From NCBI GenBank assembly GCA_026988015.1, contig JALSMA010000073.1:1-34577 (forward strand): a DNA stretch of 34,577 nt. The letters are read 5' to 3'. Positions 5,159 to 34,488 of this stretch are shown one piece after another. The notes under the pieces were generated by a model that saw only the letters and a list, made by a program, of their open reading frames with translations, ran no database searches and was not told where the DNA came from. Positions within the stretch are counted from its first letter, which is position 1. Each line of letters opens with the position of its first letter. The stretch comes from Desulfobulbaceae bacterium. GTDB taxonomy: Bacteria; Desulfobacterota; Desulfobulbia; Desulfobulbales; Desulfocapsaceae. A program made the position numbers and the translations under genes.

Positions 5159-6625
5159 TTATTCTTCCCATTCACGACCGTCGCGGGCCAGTAGTGCAAC
5201 AGATGCAACCGGGCCACCGGATCCTGCAGGGTACGGTCTGGGCGGTTCGTTGGATGCCTCCCAGGCCGTAATGATGGAATCAATCCAGGCCCAGGAACGC
5301 TCCACCTCATCACGCCTGATAAAGAGGGACTGATTGCCTATCATTGTCTCCAGTATCAGTCGTTCGTAGGCGTTAGCTACGTGCCCTGCCAGAAAGGCAT
5401 CAGAGAAGGAGAGGTCCAGCATGGTTTTCTGCAGTTTGATCCCCTTCCCGATTCCGGGAACCTTGTTGAGCATCTCAATTTCTACTCCTTCATCAGGTTG
5501 GAGGCGAATTACCAGCTTGTTCTGAGGAAGGTCACGATAACTGTTTTTAAAGATATTGTGTGGAAGCTGCTTGAAATAAATAACAACCTCCGAGCGTTTT
5601 GAGGTCATGCGCTTTCCCGTTCTCAGGTAGAATGGAACCCCAGCCCAGCGCCAGTTGTCAATATCAACCCTGATGGCTACAAAACTTTCAGTGGTTGAGC
5701 CGGGGGTACCCCCCTCTTCTTCCTTGTAGCCGGGGACTGCCGTTCCCTTGATAAATCCAGCAGTATACTGGCCTCTGACAGTTTTTTCGGCAGCGTTGTC
5801 TCTGGTTATTGGACGCAGTGCTTTGAGCACCTTCAGCTTTTCATTTCGAATGGAATCACCATCCATATTTACCGGCGGTTCCATGGCGACTAGGGTGAGG
5901 ATCTGCATGAGGTGGTTCTGGACCATATCGCGCAACTGCCCGGATTTGTCAAAGTATCCCCAGCGTCCCTCGATGCCTACCTCCTCAGCCACGGTGATCT
6001 GTACATGATCAATGGTGTTGTGATCCCAGTTGGTAGTGAAGATGGAGTTTGCAAAGCGCAAAGCCAGGAGGTTCATGACAGTCTCTTTGCCAAGATAGTG
6101 ATCAATTCGGTAGATCTGCTCTTCGGTAAACGCCTTAGAAACAACGTCGTTGATATTTTGTGAGGAGACAAGATCACGGCCAATGGGTTTCTCAAGCACA
6201 ACTCGGACCCGCTTTGTGGTGAGTCCTGCGTGACTCAGGCCCTTGCAGATGTCGTCAAAGAGAGAAGGGGCAACGGAAAAATAGTTGATTAGGCTGTGTT
6301 TCTCGTTATCTGAAAACCTGGCAAGTTGCACATAGTCTTCAGGTTTGTCAATATTGATGAGAATATAGTGGAGGCGGTTTAAAAGTCGTTCTACGATCTC
6401 AGGAAGCAGCTCGGTGGGGCTGAAGGTGTTGAGGGCCTCTTCCATTTTTTCTTTAAAATCGTTCTGGCTGATGTCGTGGCGGGCAATACCGAGAATTCTG
6501 GTATCTTTGTGTAGATGACCGGCGCGATCCAGTTCATAAAGAGAAGGAAGCAGCTTGCGTCTGGAGAGGTCTCCTAAAACACCAAATATTGCAAAATCAC
6601 ACGGATCATACTGTTGCTCCTTCAT
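5159..6625 (-). CDS. zwf: Glucose-6-phosphate 1-dehydrogenase
   Basis: Oxidises glucose 6-phosphate to 6-phosphogluconolactone with NAD(P)+, the first step of the oxidative pentose phosphate pathway. The chosen ATG gives 488 residues, close to the 491 of E. coli Zwf. It is preceded by AAAGGAA at good spacing, and the longer frame (from 6691) would overlap pyk. Visible motifs are the Rossmann loop GVLGDLSRRK at 15-24, EKPIG at 145-149 and the active-site signature RIDHYLGK at 173-180. It follows pyk after a 52 bp gap on the same strand, so the two probably share an operon. Confidence 0.97.
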   Translation of the reverse strand: MKEQQYDPCDFAIFGVLGDLSRRKLLPSLYELDRAGHLHKDTRILGIARHDISQNDFKEKMEEALNTFSPTELLPEIVERLLNRLHYILINIDKPEDYVQLARFSDNEKHSLINYFSVAPSLFDDICKGLSHAGLTTKRVRVVLEKPIGRDLVSSQNINDVVSKAFTEEQIYRIDHYLGKETVMNLLALRFANSIFTTNWDHNTIDHVQITVAEEVGIEGRWGYFDKSGQLRDMVQNHLMQILTLVAMEPPVNMDGDSIRNEKLKVLKALRPITRDNAAEKTVRGQYTAGFIKGTAVPGYKEEEGGTPGSTTESFVAIRVDIDNWRWAGVPFYLRTGKRMTSKRSEVVIYFKQLPHNIFKNSYRDLPQNKLVIRLQPDEGVEIEMLNKVPGIGKGIKLQKTMLDLSFSDAFLAGHVANAYERLILETMIGNQSLFIRRDEVERSWAWIDSIITAWEASNEPPRPYPAGSGGPVASVALLARDGREWEE

Positions 6626-28734: not shown

Positions 28735-28781
28735 GTTGAATGATCACCATTAAGAATGGTGCGGTACAGGAAGAACCTGAT

Positions 28782-29393
28782 ATGGAAATTTTGGATTGTA
28801 GTGGATTAAACTGTCCTGAGCCAGTTTTGCGAACGAAGGCTCATCTGGAAAAGAATTTGAATGAGACTTTTGGCGTTTTGGTGGACAATGAGGCGTCACG
28901 CGAGAATGTACTGCGTTTTTCAAGGAGCAGGGGTTGTGAGGCAAAGGTCACAGACAGTGCTGATAAAAACTTTCTAATCCATGTGACTCCAGGAGGAGAG
29001 GTGCTGGATGAAAACTTTGAGAAAGATGAATATCTCTGCGAAGTCACGTCCGGGGCTAATCTTGTCTATGTGATAGCCTCTGATTCAATGGGGCGTGGTT
29101 CTGATGAGTTGGGCTGGGCTTTGCTGCAGACCTATGTCACAACCATTGCTGAGATATCACCCCTTCCTTCTCACATATTACTTTATAATGGTGGTGTGAA
29201 GTTGGCCAGTACACCGGGCAAGGCTCTTGAATCCCTGCAGCTGCTTGAAAAGAAAGGTGTCACAATCTGGATTTGTGGAACCTGTCTTGAGCATTTCAGA
29301 TTAGAAAAAAAACAACAGGTGGGGGGGATCACCAATATGTATGATATTATGAGTACCATGGCTACTGCTGGAAAGGTCGTAAGTCCTTATTGA
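28782..29393 (+). CDS. yedF: YedF-type sulfurtransferase-like protein (selenium metabolism family)
   Basis: A 204-residue protein. The N-terminal TusA-like domain (1-75) carries the CPxP motif with the sulfur-carrying cysteine at residue 11 (LNCPEPV). The C-terminal part (about 90-204) is DsrE/DsrF-like, with YVIASDSMGRGSDELG and a possible second cysteine in WICGTCLEHF. The family is annotated as sulfurtransferase-like and co-occurs with selenium use, though its reaction is not established. The start at 28782 has GGAAG eight bases upstream; an earlier in-frame ATG at 28740 sits just past a terminator. The next gene begins about 20 bp after the stop, so the two are probably cotranscribed. Confidence 0.88.
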   Translation: MEILDCSGLNCPEPVLRTKAHLEKNLNETFGVLVDNEASRENVLRFSRSRGCEAKVTDSADKNFLIHVTPGGEVLDENFEKDEYLCEVTSGANLVYVIASDSMGRGSDELGWALLQTYVTTIAEISPLPSHILLYNGGVKLASTPGKALESLQLLEKKGVTIWICGTCLEHFRLEKKQQVGGITNMYDIMSTMATAGKVVSPY

Positions 29394-29413
29394 CATCCGG
29401 ATTTATAGTGTAC

Positions 29414-30535
29414 ATGAAAATATCTCCAGCTCCTGTGGATCATATTGCTGATGACTGTGTCAGCTGTGGGATTTGCGTTAAAGAATGTTCCTTTCTCCAG
29501 GAATACGGATCGCCAAAAGATCTTGCTGAAAACTGGCGAAGTGGGCAAAATCAAGGTGGAAAACTCTTTCCTTTCGAGTGCAGTCTCTGTGGCCTGTGCC
29601 TTGGAGTGTGCCCCAAAAAGCTAGATCCTTCTGCGATGTTTCTTACCATGCGTAGAGAGCTTATGGCTGGTGGTCAGGGTATACTCAGACAGCATAAGAC
29701 CATCAGATCGTATGAGAAGCGAGGGAGTTCTCCTCTGTTTTCTTTTTATTACTTTCCCGAGGGATGTACCACAGTGCTTTTCCCTGGATGTGCCTTTCCG
29801 GGAACTCGTCCCGATACGTTGCTGCATCTTTATCAGCACCTTCAGAGCTCCATTCCGAACCTTGGAATAGTTATGGACTGCTGTACAAAACCTTCCCATG
29901 ATCTCGGTGACAGTGCGCATTTCACGAAGATGTTTTCGCAACTCTGTCGGATTCTAGACTCCAATTCAGTAACTAGGGTTCTTGTAACCTGCCCGAATTG
30001 CCATCGTATCTTTAAAGAATACGGGCAGGGGATAGGGGTGGAGAGTGTCTATGAAGTGATGCCTGGGGGTGATGGCTTGCCGGTTACCACTGAGACAGAG
30101 GTGACAGTACACGATCCTTGCGGGGTGAGATTCGCGTCATCGGTACAGGATGGTGCAAGGGAATTGCTGCAGCAGCAGGGAGTGCGGATCAGAGAGATGG
30201 AGCATAACCGTCAGAAGACTTTCTGCTGCGGCGAGGGCGGGGCTGCCGGGTTTATCAGGCCTGATTTTGCAAAATCATGGACCGACAAGCGGGTGAGGGA
30301 AGCAAAGTCTAACCTTATCATCAGCTACTGTGCTGGTTGCACACAATTTCTCGGTGAGGCTGCCAACTGCCACCATCTGCTTGATTTTCTCTTTTTTTCG
30401 CAGCGGGTAATGGAGGGACGCCACAAAGTGAGTCGTGCCCCGTTTACCTACTGGAACCGTTTCCGGCTAAAGCAAAAACTCAGGAAGATGTGCTGTGCTG
30501 GTCGTTGTGGTACCCGTAACCAGATGGCCGGTTAA
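29414..30535 (+). CDS. Two-[4Fe-4S] ferredoxin plus CCG-domain oxidoreductase subunit
   Basis: About 373 residues, cytosolic. Two [4Fe-4S] ferredoxin motifs lie near the N-terminus (CVSCGICVKEC and CSLCGLCLGVCP). Two CCG-type cysteine regions follow: LFPGCAFPGTR with MDCCTKP, then CPNCHRIF, HDPCGVR, FCCGEGG and YCAGC. This is the layout of HdrD/GlpC/LutA-like subunits that pass electrons to disulfide or 2-hydroxyacid-type reactions. The partner subunit is not present. It follows yedF directly; an alternative TTG start at 29390 would overlap it. Its TAA stop overlaps the TAA of the convergent CBS-ACT gene within TTAA. Confidence 0.9.
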   Translation: MKISPAPVDHIADDCVSCGICVKECSFLQEYGSPKDLAENWRSGQNQGGKLFPFECSLCGLCLGVCPKKLDPSAMFLTMRRELMAGGQGILRQHKTIRSYEKRGSSPLFSFYYFPEGCTTVLFPGCAFPGTRPDTLLHLYQHLQSSIPNLGIVMDCCTKPSHDLGDSAHFTKMFSQLCRILDSNSVTRVLVTCPNCHRIFKEYGQGIGVESVYEVMPGGDGLPVTTETEVTVHDPCGVRFASSVQDGARELLQQQGVRIREMEHNRQKTFCCGEGGAAGFIRPDFAKSWTDKRVREAKSNLIISYCAGCTQFLGEAANCHHLLDFLFFSQRVMEGRHKVSRAPFTYWNRFRLKQKLRKMCCAGRCGTRNQMAG

Positions 30536-31185
30536 GTCTGTTCTGTCTCCAGAAGGACCCGGTTGACCTTTGCGCCGGAGTCCCACAGGGCGTCAATCAT
30601 GCTGTCCATTTCTTTTCCAGCCACCCGAATGGTGAGCAATTGGTGGTCAGGGCTGTAGTTCTTGATGATGGTGATGGCCAGCAACTGCATATTGAAATCT
30701 TTGCAGATATCGGTGATCTTGTACACGGCGGCTCCATTATTTTGAATCTGCAGTTCAATTCGAGCCCCTGATTCCCCCCCGCCCAATATTTCTGCAAAGG
30801 CTTGAAATATATCTGTTTCTGTTATTATTCCCAGCAGTTCATCGTTTTCCACCACCGGTACGGCTCCAATTTTAAAACGACGCATCAAAAGGGCCACATC
30901 TTCCAGTGGATCCATGGGATGGGCGGTGACAGGATTGGATGTCATAAATGAAGAGACCTTTGCCTGGGTGGCGATGATTGTTTTTTGAGGACTGGAAGAA
31001 GAGTCAATGGCAGAAGGAAGGGCCCTGTGGATATCACTCTGAGTGATGATTCCCACCAGCGTATTATCTTTGACCACAGGCAGATGGCGGAAATGAGATT
31101 GGCTTATGATTTCAACCGCCTGGCCAATAGGAGTGTTCTCGTCAACTGTGGTGACATCCTGCTGCATCCAAAGTTTAATAAACAT
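30532..31185 (-). CDS. CBS-CBS-ACT-like regulatory protein
   Basis: A 217-residue cytosolic protein with two CBS motifs (about 7-62 and 80-137: HFRHLPVVKDNTLVGIITQSDI and GAVPVVENDELLGIITETDI) and a C-terminal ACT-like fold (about 140-217, ARIELQIQNNGAAVYKITDICKDF). CBS pairs bind adenosyl nucleotides and ACT domains bind amino acids, so this is probably a metabolite sensor. The start follows ACAGGAGAACCC. It lies 11 bp after FapA in a three-gene operon. Confidence 0.88.
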   Translation of the reverse strand: MFIKLWMQQDVTTVDENTPIGQAVEIISQSHFRHLPVVKDNTLVGIITQSDIHRALPSAIDSSSSPQKTIIATQAKVSSFMTSNPVTAHPMDPLEDVALLMRRFKIGAVPVVENDELLGIITETDIFQAFAEILGGGESGARIELQIQNNGAAVYKITDICKDFNMQLLAITIIKNYSPDHQLLTIRVAGKEMDSMIDALWDSGAKVNRVLLETEQT

Positions 31186-31196
31186 GGGTTCTCCTG

Positions 31197-32849
31197 TTAT
31201 AAATCTGTCTCGATGAAAGTGGAGTTGTCACTGTGCAGTGAAAAACGAATCCCATGAAAATCATATTCAATGGTAGTGGTGGCATTGCCGATCTGGATCT
31301 CTGTTCCACTGAAGATTGTTCCTTCCACGGTGATGGATATTGTTTTTAGAAAAGCACTCTCGCTGCCACTGGTTCCTGCTGGGATGAGGTCGAGGCCGGT
31401 CATATTCTGATAAAGTGTGTTAATCGCCTCTTCAAGGGACTGTCGTTGTTTAATATTTTTCTTCATTCCGTGGAGCTGCAGGAAGGTGAGGCATTCTTGT
31501 TCGGTGTCTCGCAACTGAGCGCGGATTCGTAAGTAGCGCAGGTACTTTCCAGGGGAAATTCCTGCTGCAAGGAGAGTCGGAGGTGCGTTGGGTGAACCCA
31601 CATTACCGAGAGTGATGCTAGCGCCGCTCATCAGAAATCCTGCCATGACCTGACTGCTCTTTTGGCCCAGGATATCGCCATCAGACATTATTGTACTGTA
31701 GTAGGCCTGTTTTCGTATGATGGTCTTTCCTTTTACCCGCAGATTAGCCTGCTCTATGAAACTGAAGTCTGCATCTCCTGCCACGCTTACCTTACAGTTT
31801 TTGCCAAGGATTCCACCTTTGATAACCAGGTTTCCACCGCACTTGATGGTTGCCGATCTGACATTTCCACCAAGGAGCAGATCGCCACGGGTGTCTACCT
31901 TGAATCCGGGGAGGATCGTGCCTTTTATTTCGACGGCATCCTGGGATTCAATATTGCCAGTACTGTAATCAATGTTTCCGGGGATAAGTTGATGGGCACA
32001 AACTTTGATGGAGTTGTCGCTTACAAGGGAGAGGATACCACTGCGACTGGCAATAACAAGGCCCTTTTCTTCATCGTAGACAGCATCGTCAGAAACAGCG
32101 AAGGGAATATCTCTTCCCGGGAGTTGAGGGATTTCATCACCGAGAACATTGAGGCCAGGGGTACCACTTGTGGGTGGAACTCGTGTGGCAATAACCTGTC
32201 CTTTTGAAACACCAACAAACATTTTTCGTTCACGAAAATCGATCGTACCGTTCCCGAGGAGTTTTCCAGGAAGAGGACCAACCTCGATATTAAAACGGAG
32301 CAAACTATCCTTGCCGTTTATGGGAAGAAATCCCCTGGCGACGGTTTTATTTTTGAGGATTATTTTTTCAGTGGCGGAGTATTGCAGTAATTGAGATAAG
32401 CGCTCTTCCATTATCCCAAAACGAATATCATTACCCTCAAGGATCTCTGCAATGATTTCGAGAGTTGGACCGGGAGTGTCAGATAGAGGAGGGTAGATGG
32501 TGAGCTGTGCTTCCATCATATCCTTTGAAATTGTCACCAGGGGGATCATGGTGATCATTATGAGGTGCATCTTTTGACTGGTTTTGCTGGATATCTGAGG
32601 GTACCCGTCTATTTCAGCGCTGATGGTATGTTTGTCATCTGTAAGCCGAGTATGTTTTCCTGTGACCAGTTCAAGTGGTCTTTTTGGGGGATTGTCTACA
32701 GGGGGAAGAACCAGTTGAACAAGAGGTTGGTTTTTTCGTACCAGCTCCATGGTCTGAACAGAGGATTGATCCCTTGCGGTAATATTTTCGGTACGGAACA
32801 GAAAATTGGCAATCAGAAGGGGATGAGCTTCTTTGGTCTCGTTGCTCAA
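31197..32849 (-). CDS. FapA/DUF342-family polymer-associated protein
   Basis: A 550-residue cytosolic protein of the FapA (flagellar assembly protein A, DUF342) family. The N-terminal 100 residues are atypical and hydrophobic-rich in parts. The family core (about 170-430) is repetitive beta structure: GQVIATRVPPTSGTPGLNVLGDEIP and then SQDAVEIKGTILPGFKVDTRGDLLLGGNV repeats (parallel beta-helix). A C-terminal coiled stretch precedes a final beta part. FapA affects flagellar or polar-organelle biology in some bacteria. The gene starts with TTG, 2 bp after the NifM-like stop, so translation is likely coupled. No flagellar gene is adjacent. Confidence 0.85.
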   Translation of the reverse strand: MSNETKEAHPLLIANFLFRTENITARDQSSVQTMELVRKNQPLVQLVLPPVDNPPKRPLELVTGKHTRLTDDKHTISAEIDGYPQISSKTSQKMHLIMITMIPLVTISKDMMEAQLTIYPPLSDTPGPTLEIIAEILEGNDIRFGIMEERLSQLLQYSATEKIILKNKTVARGFLPINGKDSLLRFNIEVGPLPGKLLGNGTIDFRERKMFVGVSKGQVIATRVPPTSGTPGLNVLGDEIPQLPGRDIPFAVSDDAVYDEEKGLVIASRSGILSLVSDNSIKVCAHQLIPGNIDYSTGNIESQDAVEIKGTILPGFKVDTRGDLLLGGNVRSATIKCGGNLVIKGGILGKNCKVSVAGDADFSFIEQANLRVKGKTIIRKQAYYSTIMSDGDILGQKSSQVMAGFLMSGASITLGNVGSPNAPPTLLAAGISPGKYLRYLRIRAQLRDTEQECLTFLQLHGMKKNIKQRQSLEEAINTLYQNMTGLDLIPAGTSGSESAFLKTISITVEGTIFSGTEIQIGNATTTIEYDFHGIRFSLHSDNSTFIETDL

Positions 32850-32851
32850 GG

Positions 32852-33718
32852 CTATATTTCCCCCCTGGGTCGAACAAGATCGTGGAGCCAGGTGCGACAG
32901 GCTTCCAGTTGTTTCTTTTTCAGGAGTATAGAAAAAATTTCAGAGGATGCTTTTTTGAGGGATGATTCCTTTACCGGTATAATTTTTTTGCAGTAGAGAA
33001 TATTGAATCCGTCTGCTGTTTCTATGATATCACTTATTTCTCCCTGGCGGAGAGAAAAAAGGATCTTGTCTAGATCGGTGCAGAGTTCACCAGCTACTAG
33101 GTTTTTCAAATTACCACTGCCGGAAACGGCGCAGCTGGAATGGAGGCGGGCCTCTCTGCTAAATGTCTTCGGATGCTGGCAGACTCTGTCGCGGATGTTT
33201 GTTATCAAGGCAAAGGCTTGGTCGATTTCCCGAACGGAAACCGGATTGAAAGGGATGTGGATGTGTCCGGCGATACGCCTCTCCTGCAGCCTGAAATCTG
33301 CATGGTTCCGGGTGTAATAGGAGAGTATTTCAGCCGCAGTCACAGACTGTACTGTAGAAGCAACCCTGGAAAGTACTGTCTCCACCCGAAGGTCGTTGTG
33401 AAGAGCAATGGTATACTCTTCCATTTGCATATTGTTTTCCTCCAGAGTGGAAAAAAAAACATCGCTGCTGGGATATTCGGAAATAACATCTTCCAGGGTT
33501 TGGTTCAGGGTAACCTCGGGAATAACAACACAACAGGCATCTTCTGAGGTAAGGATAACCTGATGGAGAAGCATTTCTTCATTGGCGTGCTGGTATGCAA
33601 GGGTGTATTCGTGCTTTGTCAGATTACTGGTACTTTTCTGGAAATCTTGAAAGGCAAATTTCATGAGATGAAAGGACAGTGATGGGTCAATCTGATTTTG
33701 CTCTTTATCCTGCTGCAT
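32852..33718 (-). CDS. NifM-like parvulin-type peptidyl-prolyl isomerase
   Basis: A 288-residue protein without a signal peptide. The N-terminal part carries the NifM-like helical pattern, with VVIPEVTLNQTLEDVISEYP and LHNDLRVETVLSRVA resembling the equivalent NifM segments. The parvulin-type isomerase domain begins at about 160 (ERRIAGHIHIPFN) and runs to about 262. NifM assists maturation of the nitrogenase Fe protein in diazotrophs. No nif gene is present here, so the client is open. The start at 33718 has AGAGGATCTT upstream; a GTG at 33748 has none. It leads the operon with FapA and CBS-ACT. Confidence 0.7.
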   Translation of the reverse strand: MQQDKEQNQIDPSLSFHLMKFAFQDFQKSTSNLTKHEYTLAYQHANEEMLLHQVILTSEDACCVVIPEVTLNQTLEDVISEYPSSDVFFSTLEENNMQMEEYTIALHNDLRVETVLSRVASTVQSVTAAEILSYYTRNHADFRLQERRIAGHIHIPFNPVSVREIDQAFALITNIRDRVCQHPKTFSREARLHSSCAVSGSGNLKNLVAGELCTDLDKILFSLRQGEISDIIETADGFNILYCKKIIPVKESSLKKASSEIFSILLKKKQLEACRTWLHDLVRPRGEI

Positions 33719-34488
33719 AAGATCCTCTGGAAGTGGAATGGCAGCCACTGCAAAAGTATATGTATTCTCTGAATTCGTGCCGGCGTCGTAATTGTTTTTT
33801 TAGTAACATGCTGAGTTATAGGTGTAAAATTTCCTATCAGACAAGTTTGGAGAAATCACCAGCCTCCCTTTGGGTCATTTGCTGCCGACTGTCCTGTATC
33901 TTTTTGATGCGCCTGTTGCTCCTCAAGGAGATGAAAGGAGGTAGATGCTTGCGACTAATTATTGTAGCTTTATTGTATCGCATTACTTTGCGGAAACAAA
34001 ATTTTTCCGGATGAAAAATGAAAAAAATGCATCTTGCAGAACTCTTTTTTTCTTTTGGAAAATAGCAGAGAATTATAGGCGATAAGCAGTTTCTTTCGGA
34101 AAGGCAAGAGTGCAAGGGGGAGAGTTGTCGCCGAAACCATGGCGCGTATTGTGAATTTTGGTACAGGTGAAGGGCTGCTGTTGCAATCTTGGAAAAAGAT
34201 AGATCTGTATATGTGATACGACGGAAGTCACGTTATACATTGCGGAAGATGAATTTGTAAAAAGGGAATTTTCTGTGGGACAGGGTAGGCTGAGAAAGGT
34301 CCTGAAAAAAGTATGTAAGAAAGCGTTTCTTCGAAGTAACAAGGTATGTCTGTCTCTGTACAGTGCTGCAGACAGGGGACATATTACAGCGCAGTGACAG
34401 TGAACTCTTTATTGACAAGATTGTAAAAAGCCAAAACAACCAATGCCTAAGTAGAGCTTCCTCAATAAGTCATCCAGCTACAAGCTGA
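33719..34488. other. AT-rich region without a confident gene
   Basis: About 770 bp upstream of the NifM-like operon. It probably holds that operon's promoter on the minus strand. I saw no tRNA, repeat copy or terminator. Two weak coding hints exist on the plus strand: a 46-codon frame at 33945-34085 preceded by AAAGGAGG, and an open frame without ATG at 34203-34397. I would not annotate either with confidence. Confidence 0.5.
33945..34085 (+). CDS. Possible 46-residue small ORF with strong ribosome binding site
   Basis: ATG at 33945 is preceded by AAAGGAGG, but the spacing from GGAGG to ATG is only 3 bases, short of optimal. The product has several Phe, Lys and Asn and two Cys and matches nothing I recognise. 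Coding is doubtful. Confidence 0.18.
   Translation: MLATNYCSFIVSHYFAETKFFRMKNEKNASCRTLFFFWKIAENYRR

Follow-up and report, generated by a model that had tools for sequence, protein, structure and literature searches.

A NifM-family parvulin next to a fapA-cbs flagellar pair in Desulfocapsa and a second genus: a candidate chaperone with a client other than NifH

Introduction

Among described proteins, the closest counterpart to the parvulin analysed here is NifM. The sections of PMC12691677 that deal with the K. oxytoca protein attribute most of its activity to the isomerase (PPIase) half and the binding of NifH to the N-terminal half, and they report a G213A/H215A/L217A triple mutant as dead, H215 alone not being mutated there. 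The same sections describe the NifM family as restricted mainly to a subset of Proteobacteria, and both its role for NifH and the relative part of the isomerase and binding halves as still debated. By titles and the opening lines of abstracts, a literature search on NifM in the Desulfobacterota had nothing on point among the matches listed, and some of its matches concerned the pipeline NifMAP.

The second described system is FapA, which the relevant portion of PMC6877527 presents, in Vibrio, as a protein of flagella assembly to which EIIAGlc binds in its dephosphorylated form. Desulfocapsa sulfexigens is described, in the part of PMC3739170 concerned with it, as an N2 fixer that moves by means of a polar flagellum. 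A literature search for FapA, CBS domain and flagella together found nothing on a fapA-cbs pair. The locus analysed here brings a NifM-family parvulin and such a pair together in one window, by which is meant the whole stretch of DNA that was analysed (34,577 nucleotides, contig JALSMA010000073.1 of assembly GCA_026988015.1).

The operon in the window

On its reverse (−) strand the window encodes a NifM-family parvulin (32852..33718; 288 aa; Pfam Rotamase 2.9e-13), whose close orthologues are termed class A throughout, followed after a 2-bp gap by fapA (31197..32849; 550 aa; TTG start; FapA_N and FapA beta-solenoid) and after an 11-bp gap by a gene for a two-CBS-domain protein (30532..31185; 217 aa; C-terminal region weakly like ACT), here called cbs. 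A preliminary description had reported a tight three-gene operon, and its coordinates, strand, gaps and TTG start of fapA all hold. An alternative in-frame GTG start would extend the parvulin by 33719..33748 on the same strand (GTG at 33748); the ATG at 33718 is the point from which orthologues align to the window protein. In Pfam, the window FapA matches FapA_N (5.7e-40, 137 bits against a cut-off of 27) and FapA (8.3e-37, 127.7 bits against 31), and the CBS protein carries two CBS domains (1.4e-33, 115 bits). The earlier label of a CBS-ACT protein is thus sound in its CBS part but weak in its ACT part, for which the model gives 13.5 bits against a cut-off of 27.4; that model matches 3 of the 11 homologues scanned at E ≤ 1, with a best E of 0.0057.

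Read by eye, a purine-rich run lies inside the 3′ end of the parvulin gene just 5′ of the fapA TTG, and at all 18 of the junctions printed fapA opens between −4 and +12 bp from the parvulin stop, so that the arrangement is not one of chance. Judged by this spacing, the parvulin is probably co-transcribed and translationally coupled with fapA-cbs. Scans of 22 upstream regions for sigma-54 and sigma-28 consensus sequences, made without a shuffle control, gave scattered weak matches and leave a flagellar promoter unsupported. A TACAAT element, found by eye and with no control in the last 60 nt of 11 of the 22 class A upstream regions (e.g., just before position 5755 of locus L040) and absent from the window parvulin's own last 60 nt, is possibly a shared housekeeping promoter of class A parvulins.

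Two genes on the forward (+) strand lie outside the operon. A convergent gene for an iron-sulfur/CCG protein (29390..30535), related to the 'near Sec' family, is a kept neighbour in Desulfocapsa, and yedF (28740..29393; TusA and DsrE) is a kept neighbour in both genera that carry class A. Together (window 28740-30535) they adjoin the parvulin across Desulfocapsa, the flagella-less genome G131 included.

Phylogenetic placement of the parvulin

No signal peptide is apparent by eye in the window parvulin. The AlphaFold model (mean pLDDT 87.4, pTM 0.60) predicts a helical N-domain (residues 12-142), then a PPIase (parvulin) domain (147-247), and finally a long helix at the C-terminus (254-282). 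Solved relatives, in sequence as in fold, are of the SurA, PrsA and Pin1 types. The NifM profile TIGR02933 covers the whole length of the protein at 110.6 bits, under the cut-off of 168.2. Five class A proteins scanned with this profile gave 110.6-158.9 bits, all five below the cut-off, and five of the class B proteins defined below gave 168.8-200.9 bits. As one class A copy from the second genus (G012) reaches 170.2 bits, class A straddles the NifM cut-off. Generic secreted parvulins score like the window protein, one of them reaching 133 bits; profile bits alone were therefore dropped as evidence, and the designation 'NifM-like' rests on the tree. NifM is rare in the phylum, where a draw of 395 genomes held one protein above the cut-off, a class A copy. 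A second close relative of the parvulin was sought in the window's genome, and the next match stood at E 0.02 over 41 residues.

Among 242 genomes of the order, class A occurs in 27, namely in 15 of the 18 Desulfocapsa genomes drawn and in 12 of the 14 from the second genus, and in none outside these two genera. Nine genomes encode a nearly full-length protein, 27-31% identical, which is designated class B. It adjoins nif genes in eight of the nine and lies apart from the genome's own nif cluster in the ninth (G050), and these copies amount to a nif-linked NifM in 8 of the 242 genomes of the order plus one unlinked copy, sometimes beside the paralogue: G033, G073, G093 and G160 each hold class A and class B together. 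The class B gene is divergent between nifA and nifH in G033, G093, G073, G180 and G160 (L060, L061, L062, L063 and L067), an arrangement unlike the enterobacterial plasmid order nifV-nifW-nifZ-nifM; in G218 and G014 it follows nifK and the genes next to it, and in G083 it adjoins nifH. An Oleiphilaceae locus holds a copy inside a cluster read by eye as nifU, nifS, nifV and others.

A first tree of 54 rows, rooted at its midpoint and with many rows of odd letter make-up, recovered class A as a clade of its own (100/100). A split with 100/97 support separated class A, 12 class B-type rows and three enterobacterial NifMs from 14 secreted and two nar-linked parvulins. Class B was not one clade in this tree, and support was weak (89/48) where class A joins the class B of its own family. 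Three class A copies, broken by an in-frame stop (G160), deleted for one domain (G151) or split over two contigs (G143), were assigned by identity and their place beside fapA and used in neither the trees nor the catalytic-site table; the G156 copy entered both, counted as changed in the table, and was left out of the domain-identity comparison, and G093 is absent from the first tree and present in a second. The earlier description had called the parvulin NifM-like and had named a grouping with SurA/PrsA as the contrary outcome; that grouping did not occur, and the protein falls, under the midpoint root, on the NifM side of the 100/97 split in its own branch. By the same split, a SurA/PrsA parvulin mislabelled as NifM was ruled out. 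Class A is apparently a NifM paralogue, vertically inherited in two genera around Desulfocapsa. Two of the class B-type rows (L117 and L119, of G360 and G387) come from other families of the phylum. The NifM model gives them 163 and 145 bits, the tree places both on its NifM side, and in the short stretches available neither was seen to have a nif gene alongside.

Co-occurrence with nifH

The window's genome (3.15 Mb, 99.8% complete) carries nifH on contig C57 at 411 bits, the window itself being contig C73. By eye, a nifA-like gene precedes nifH, and the genes after nifH look like nifI1, nifI2, nifD and nifK. The earlier statement that there are no nif genes here is accordingly correct for the window but not for the genome, and a nitrogenase-free genome was rejected. 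No nif genes lie alongside at the class A loci read, where the neighbours are fapA-cbs or yedF.

A search of the 242 genomes at E 1e-70 found nifH in 150. Among the class A carriers it is present in 17 of 27 and absent from ten (G104, G131, G156, G049, G084, G196, G217, G221, G239 and G241), of which G104, G131, G156, G049 and G084 are 94-100% complete. Because nifH is missing from these ten, NifH is no obligatory client of class A. The reverse also occurs, with 128 of the 150 nifH genomes lacking both class A and class B (G210, with nifH and neither class, is one example), so NifH in this order commonly does without NifM. The earlier hint of a client other than the nitrogenase Fe protein is therefore probable, given the ten carriers without nifH and the four that also hold a nif-linked NifM.

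Association with fapA, cbs and flagella

Directly downstream of the parvulin lies fapA in 21 of the 27 carriers, and cbs follows in 19 of those 21; the contig ends in G239, and cbs is about 11 kb away in G049. Behind the parvulins of G241 and G156 the contig ends, and a genome-wide search for FapA in G156 gave no match. A genome-wide search at E 1e-6 gave no fapA in G131, G221, G079 and G096, neither FlhA nor FliF was found in them, and a search for cbs homologues at E 1e-25 gave none in three of the four and only a 29% identical one in G079. All four retain the parvulin, and in G131 a gap of 19 bp separates its end from the following gene, as though fapA-cbs had been excised.

Flagella were surveyed in 46 genomes chosen out of the 242, comprising all 32 of the two genera and 14 others; G241, in which a FlhA fragment fell below the cut-off, was counted as flagellated because FliF is present. 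FapA is absent from four of the five flagella-less genomes (G180 keeps one) versus 2 of the 41 others (G156 and G083), for a Fisher p of 4.4e-4 across these chosen genomes, uncorrected for kinship. On the tree, supported branches yield only three independent pairs, which agree in direction (sign test p 0.25). dN/dS was computed by NG86 for 15 class A pairs, 12 of them measurable. Six of the 12 involve G221, G079 or G096 and gave 0.15-0.27; the other six compare flagellated genomes and gave 0.07-0.33. The remaining three pairs were saturated, two of them with flagella-less G131. The parvulin is thus under purifying selection in the three measurable flagella-less genomes, G221, G079 and G096.

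The pair also exists without the parvulin. Five other genomes of the family were tested for fapA-cbs: G100, G061, G056 and G041, from four further genera, hold this conserved pair with no parvulin (L103, L104, L105 and L106), and G180 has fapA with no cbs match. In the second genus, G210 keeps fapA-cbs and lacks the parvulin although the contig continues. The window's genome encodes a second fapA (G000:C48:39740-41320, L109), 36% identical, between genes that read by eye as nuclease-like and transporter-like, with no parvulin or cbs alongside. The other contrary outcome named in the earlier description, a scattered gene order, occurs in part; the order recurs in 21 of 27 carriers. Since parvulin and flagellar pair are separable both ways, the parvulin has been joined to the pair and does not form one folding unit with it, and the earlier suggestion of a single folding or assembly unit with FapA and the sensor is not upheld. 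Nor is FapA an obligatory client, as four flagella-less, fapA-less genomes keep the parvulin.

State of the isomerase domain

Three catalytic-site positions were matched to what we take to be His59, Cys113 and His157 of Pin1. The H-C-H combination is present in all 11 class B/NifM rows and in 10 of the 12 class A rows from the second genus, the other two reading H-A-H, versus 3 of the 12 Desulfocapsa class A rows, where nine are changed. The window parvulin reads H-C-N, with the second catalytic-site His replaced by Asn, and shows G-F-N-I-L where, matched by motif spacing, K. oxytoca NifM has its G-x-H-x-L motif (G213/H215/L217). Losing one His does not necessarily abolish the activity of a parvulin.

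Conservation of the two domains in Desulfocapsa class A runs the other way from NifM. In Desulfocapsa class A, mean pairwise identity is 0.57 in the N-domain versus 0.45 in the PPIase domain (+0.12; column bootstrap 95% 0.04 to 0.20). The corresponding values are 0.66 versus 0.69 in the second genus, with an interval that includes zero, 0.57 versus 0.75 (−0.18) in five nif-linked class B proteins of the same family, and 0.29 versus 0.48 in the 11 class B/NifM rows. At the level of sequence, then, the isomerase domain is decaying in Desulfocapsa class A.

G151 encodes a 185-aa protein of the NifM family (L071:4518-5072) that retains everything through residue 142 together with the C-terminal helix, its PPIase domain having been deleted in frame, as read from one contig of one draft genome. 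Its model (pLDDT 80.4, pTM 0.71) aligns with the SurA core while skipping the isomerase domains (Z 11.2, 163 residues, rmsd 3.4 Å), and SurA occupies 10 of the top 11 rows of the structure comparison. As a Z of 11.2 between helical proteins is no proof, the likeness of this predicted form to the SurA core is suggestive. Other copies are plainly damaged. In G160, which also has a nif-linked NifM, the class A gene (L047:6318-7178) is broken by an in-frame TAG, and the G156 copy is degraded and frameshifted close to its end; together these indicate that part of Desulfocapsa may be losing a dispensable gene.

Discussion

The reading that we favour, at a probability of roughly 0.55, is that class A is a cytosolic NifM-family chaperone which relies chiefly on its SurA-like core, has a client other than NifH or FapA and is placed beside a flagellar pair. 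Class A is taken in this sense because the pattern of constraint in Desulfocapsa is the opposite of that in NifM. The protein would most likely be a SurA-like holdase or foldase, in which the N-terminal helical domain and the C-terminal helix would cradle a nascent or apo client, with the PPIase domain assisting where it is intact, as in the second genus, and being lost in Desulfocapsa. Gene losses point to a client that would be neither NifH nor FapA nor the flagellum; another cytosolic protein, cofactor-bearing or nucleotide-binding, is a guess by analogy with NifM. The place upstream of the flagellar pair may have reasons of history or expression. Several observations count against this reading. 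In the sections of PMC12691677 on K. oxytoca NifM the PPIase half carries most of the function, opposite to the proposal for Desulfocapsa; the contrast between domains is absent from the second genus; and the copies of G160 and G156 show plain damage. The G151 deletion comes from a single draft contig, the change of one His is compatible with parvulin activity, the link of FapA to flagella has three independent pairs on the tree, and the dN/dS pairs of G131 are saturated.

Three other explanations were weighed. Class A could be the genome's own NifM, maturing a NifH encoded elsewhere and standing beside fapA incidentally, and the window's genome, with nifH and no other NifM-like gene, would fit this, as would the 17 of 27 carriers with nifH and the 170.2 bits of G012 against a cut-off of 168.2. 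We nevertheless regard it as quite improbable: ten carriers lack nifH and four also have a nif-linked NifM, G151 pairs nifH with only a domain-deleted copy, G210 has nifH and neither class, 128 of 150 nifH genomes do without both, and the window protein has Asn where, by motif spacing, the G-x-H-x-L motif has His. It is likewise improbable, though not to the same degree, that class A is a folding factor specific to FapA or the flagellum and is translated immediately ahead of that client. The tight junction in 18 of 18 printed cases, the 21 of 27 carriers with fapA directly downstream and the tracking of flagella by fapA (Fisher p 4.4e-4 in 46 chosen genomes, kinship not corrected) all speak for such a factor, but four genomes that lack both fapA and flagella still have the parvulin, three of them showing dN/dS values similar to those of the remaining pairs, fapA-cbs occurs with no parvulin in G210 and in four further genera, and the second fapA of the window's genome has no parvulin adjoining.

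Finally, class A may be a relic of NifM that has lost its client and drifts in Desulfocapsa, persisting only as a leader gene for the translation of fapA. The in-frame stop of G160, the degraded G156 copy, the domain loss of G151, the clean loss in G210 and the changed catalytic site in 9 of 12 Desulfocapsa rows are what decay would leave behind, and this is the least unlikely of the three, though unlikely still. Against it, dN/dS is 0.07-0.33 in all 12 measurable pairs of the 15, the parvulin is retained after the loss of fapA, where a leader role is pointless, and the catalytic site is intact in 10 of 12 rows of the second genus.

A further-reaching scenario can be offered tentatively, as a possibility that we hold to be short of even odds: one branch of the NifM family may have exchanged nitrogenase for a different cytosolic client and, within Desulfocapsa, may be giving up its isomerase function to act purely as a chaperone, G151 being a living intermediate without the isomerase domain. 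As a paralogue on the NifM scaffold that has no obligatory NifH, a decaying isomerase and one domain-free version, class A would offer a way to separate the two functions.

Compared with known systems, class A is like NifM (TIGR02933; enterobacterial and class B) in having no signal peptide by eye, in its domain order over the full profile and in its side of the tree. It differs in forming its own clade, in the lack of adjoining nif genes at the loci read, in occurring without nifH, in a TIGR02933 score below the cut-off in five of five proteins scanned (one further copy lies above) and in the loss of PPIase residues from most Desulfocapsa copies. With SurA, PrsA and PpiD it shares the fold, a helical chaperone core with a parvulin domain, but it has no signal peptide by eye and lies outside the branch of 14 secreted parvulins (100/97). 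The narI-linked parvulins of Pontibrevibacter and Azospirillum plasmids resemble class A in being attached to a non-nif operon, although they belong to a different branch of the tree; they lie directly behind narJ-narI on Alphaproteobacterial plasmids (L149:1465-2259 and L150:1231-2154), a second case of an operon-bound parvulin. The FapA of the window, for its part, shares the FapA_N and FapA domains with the described protein and its presence follows flagella, and in the family that contains Desulfocapsa it is paired with a CBS-domain gene.
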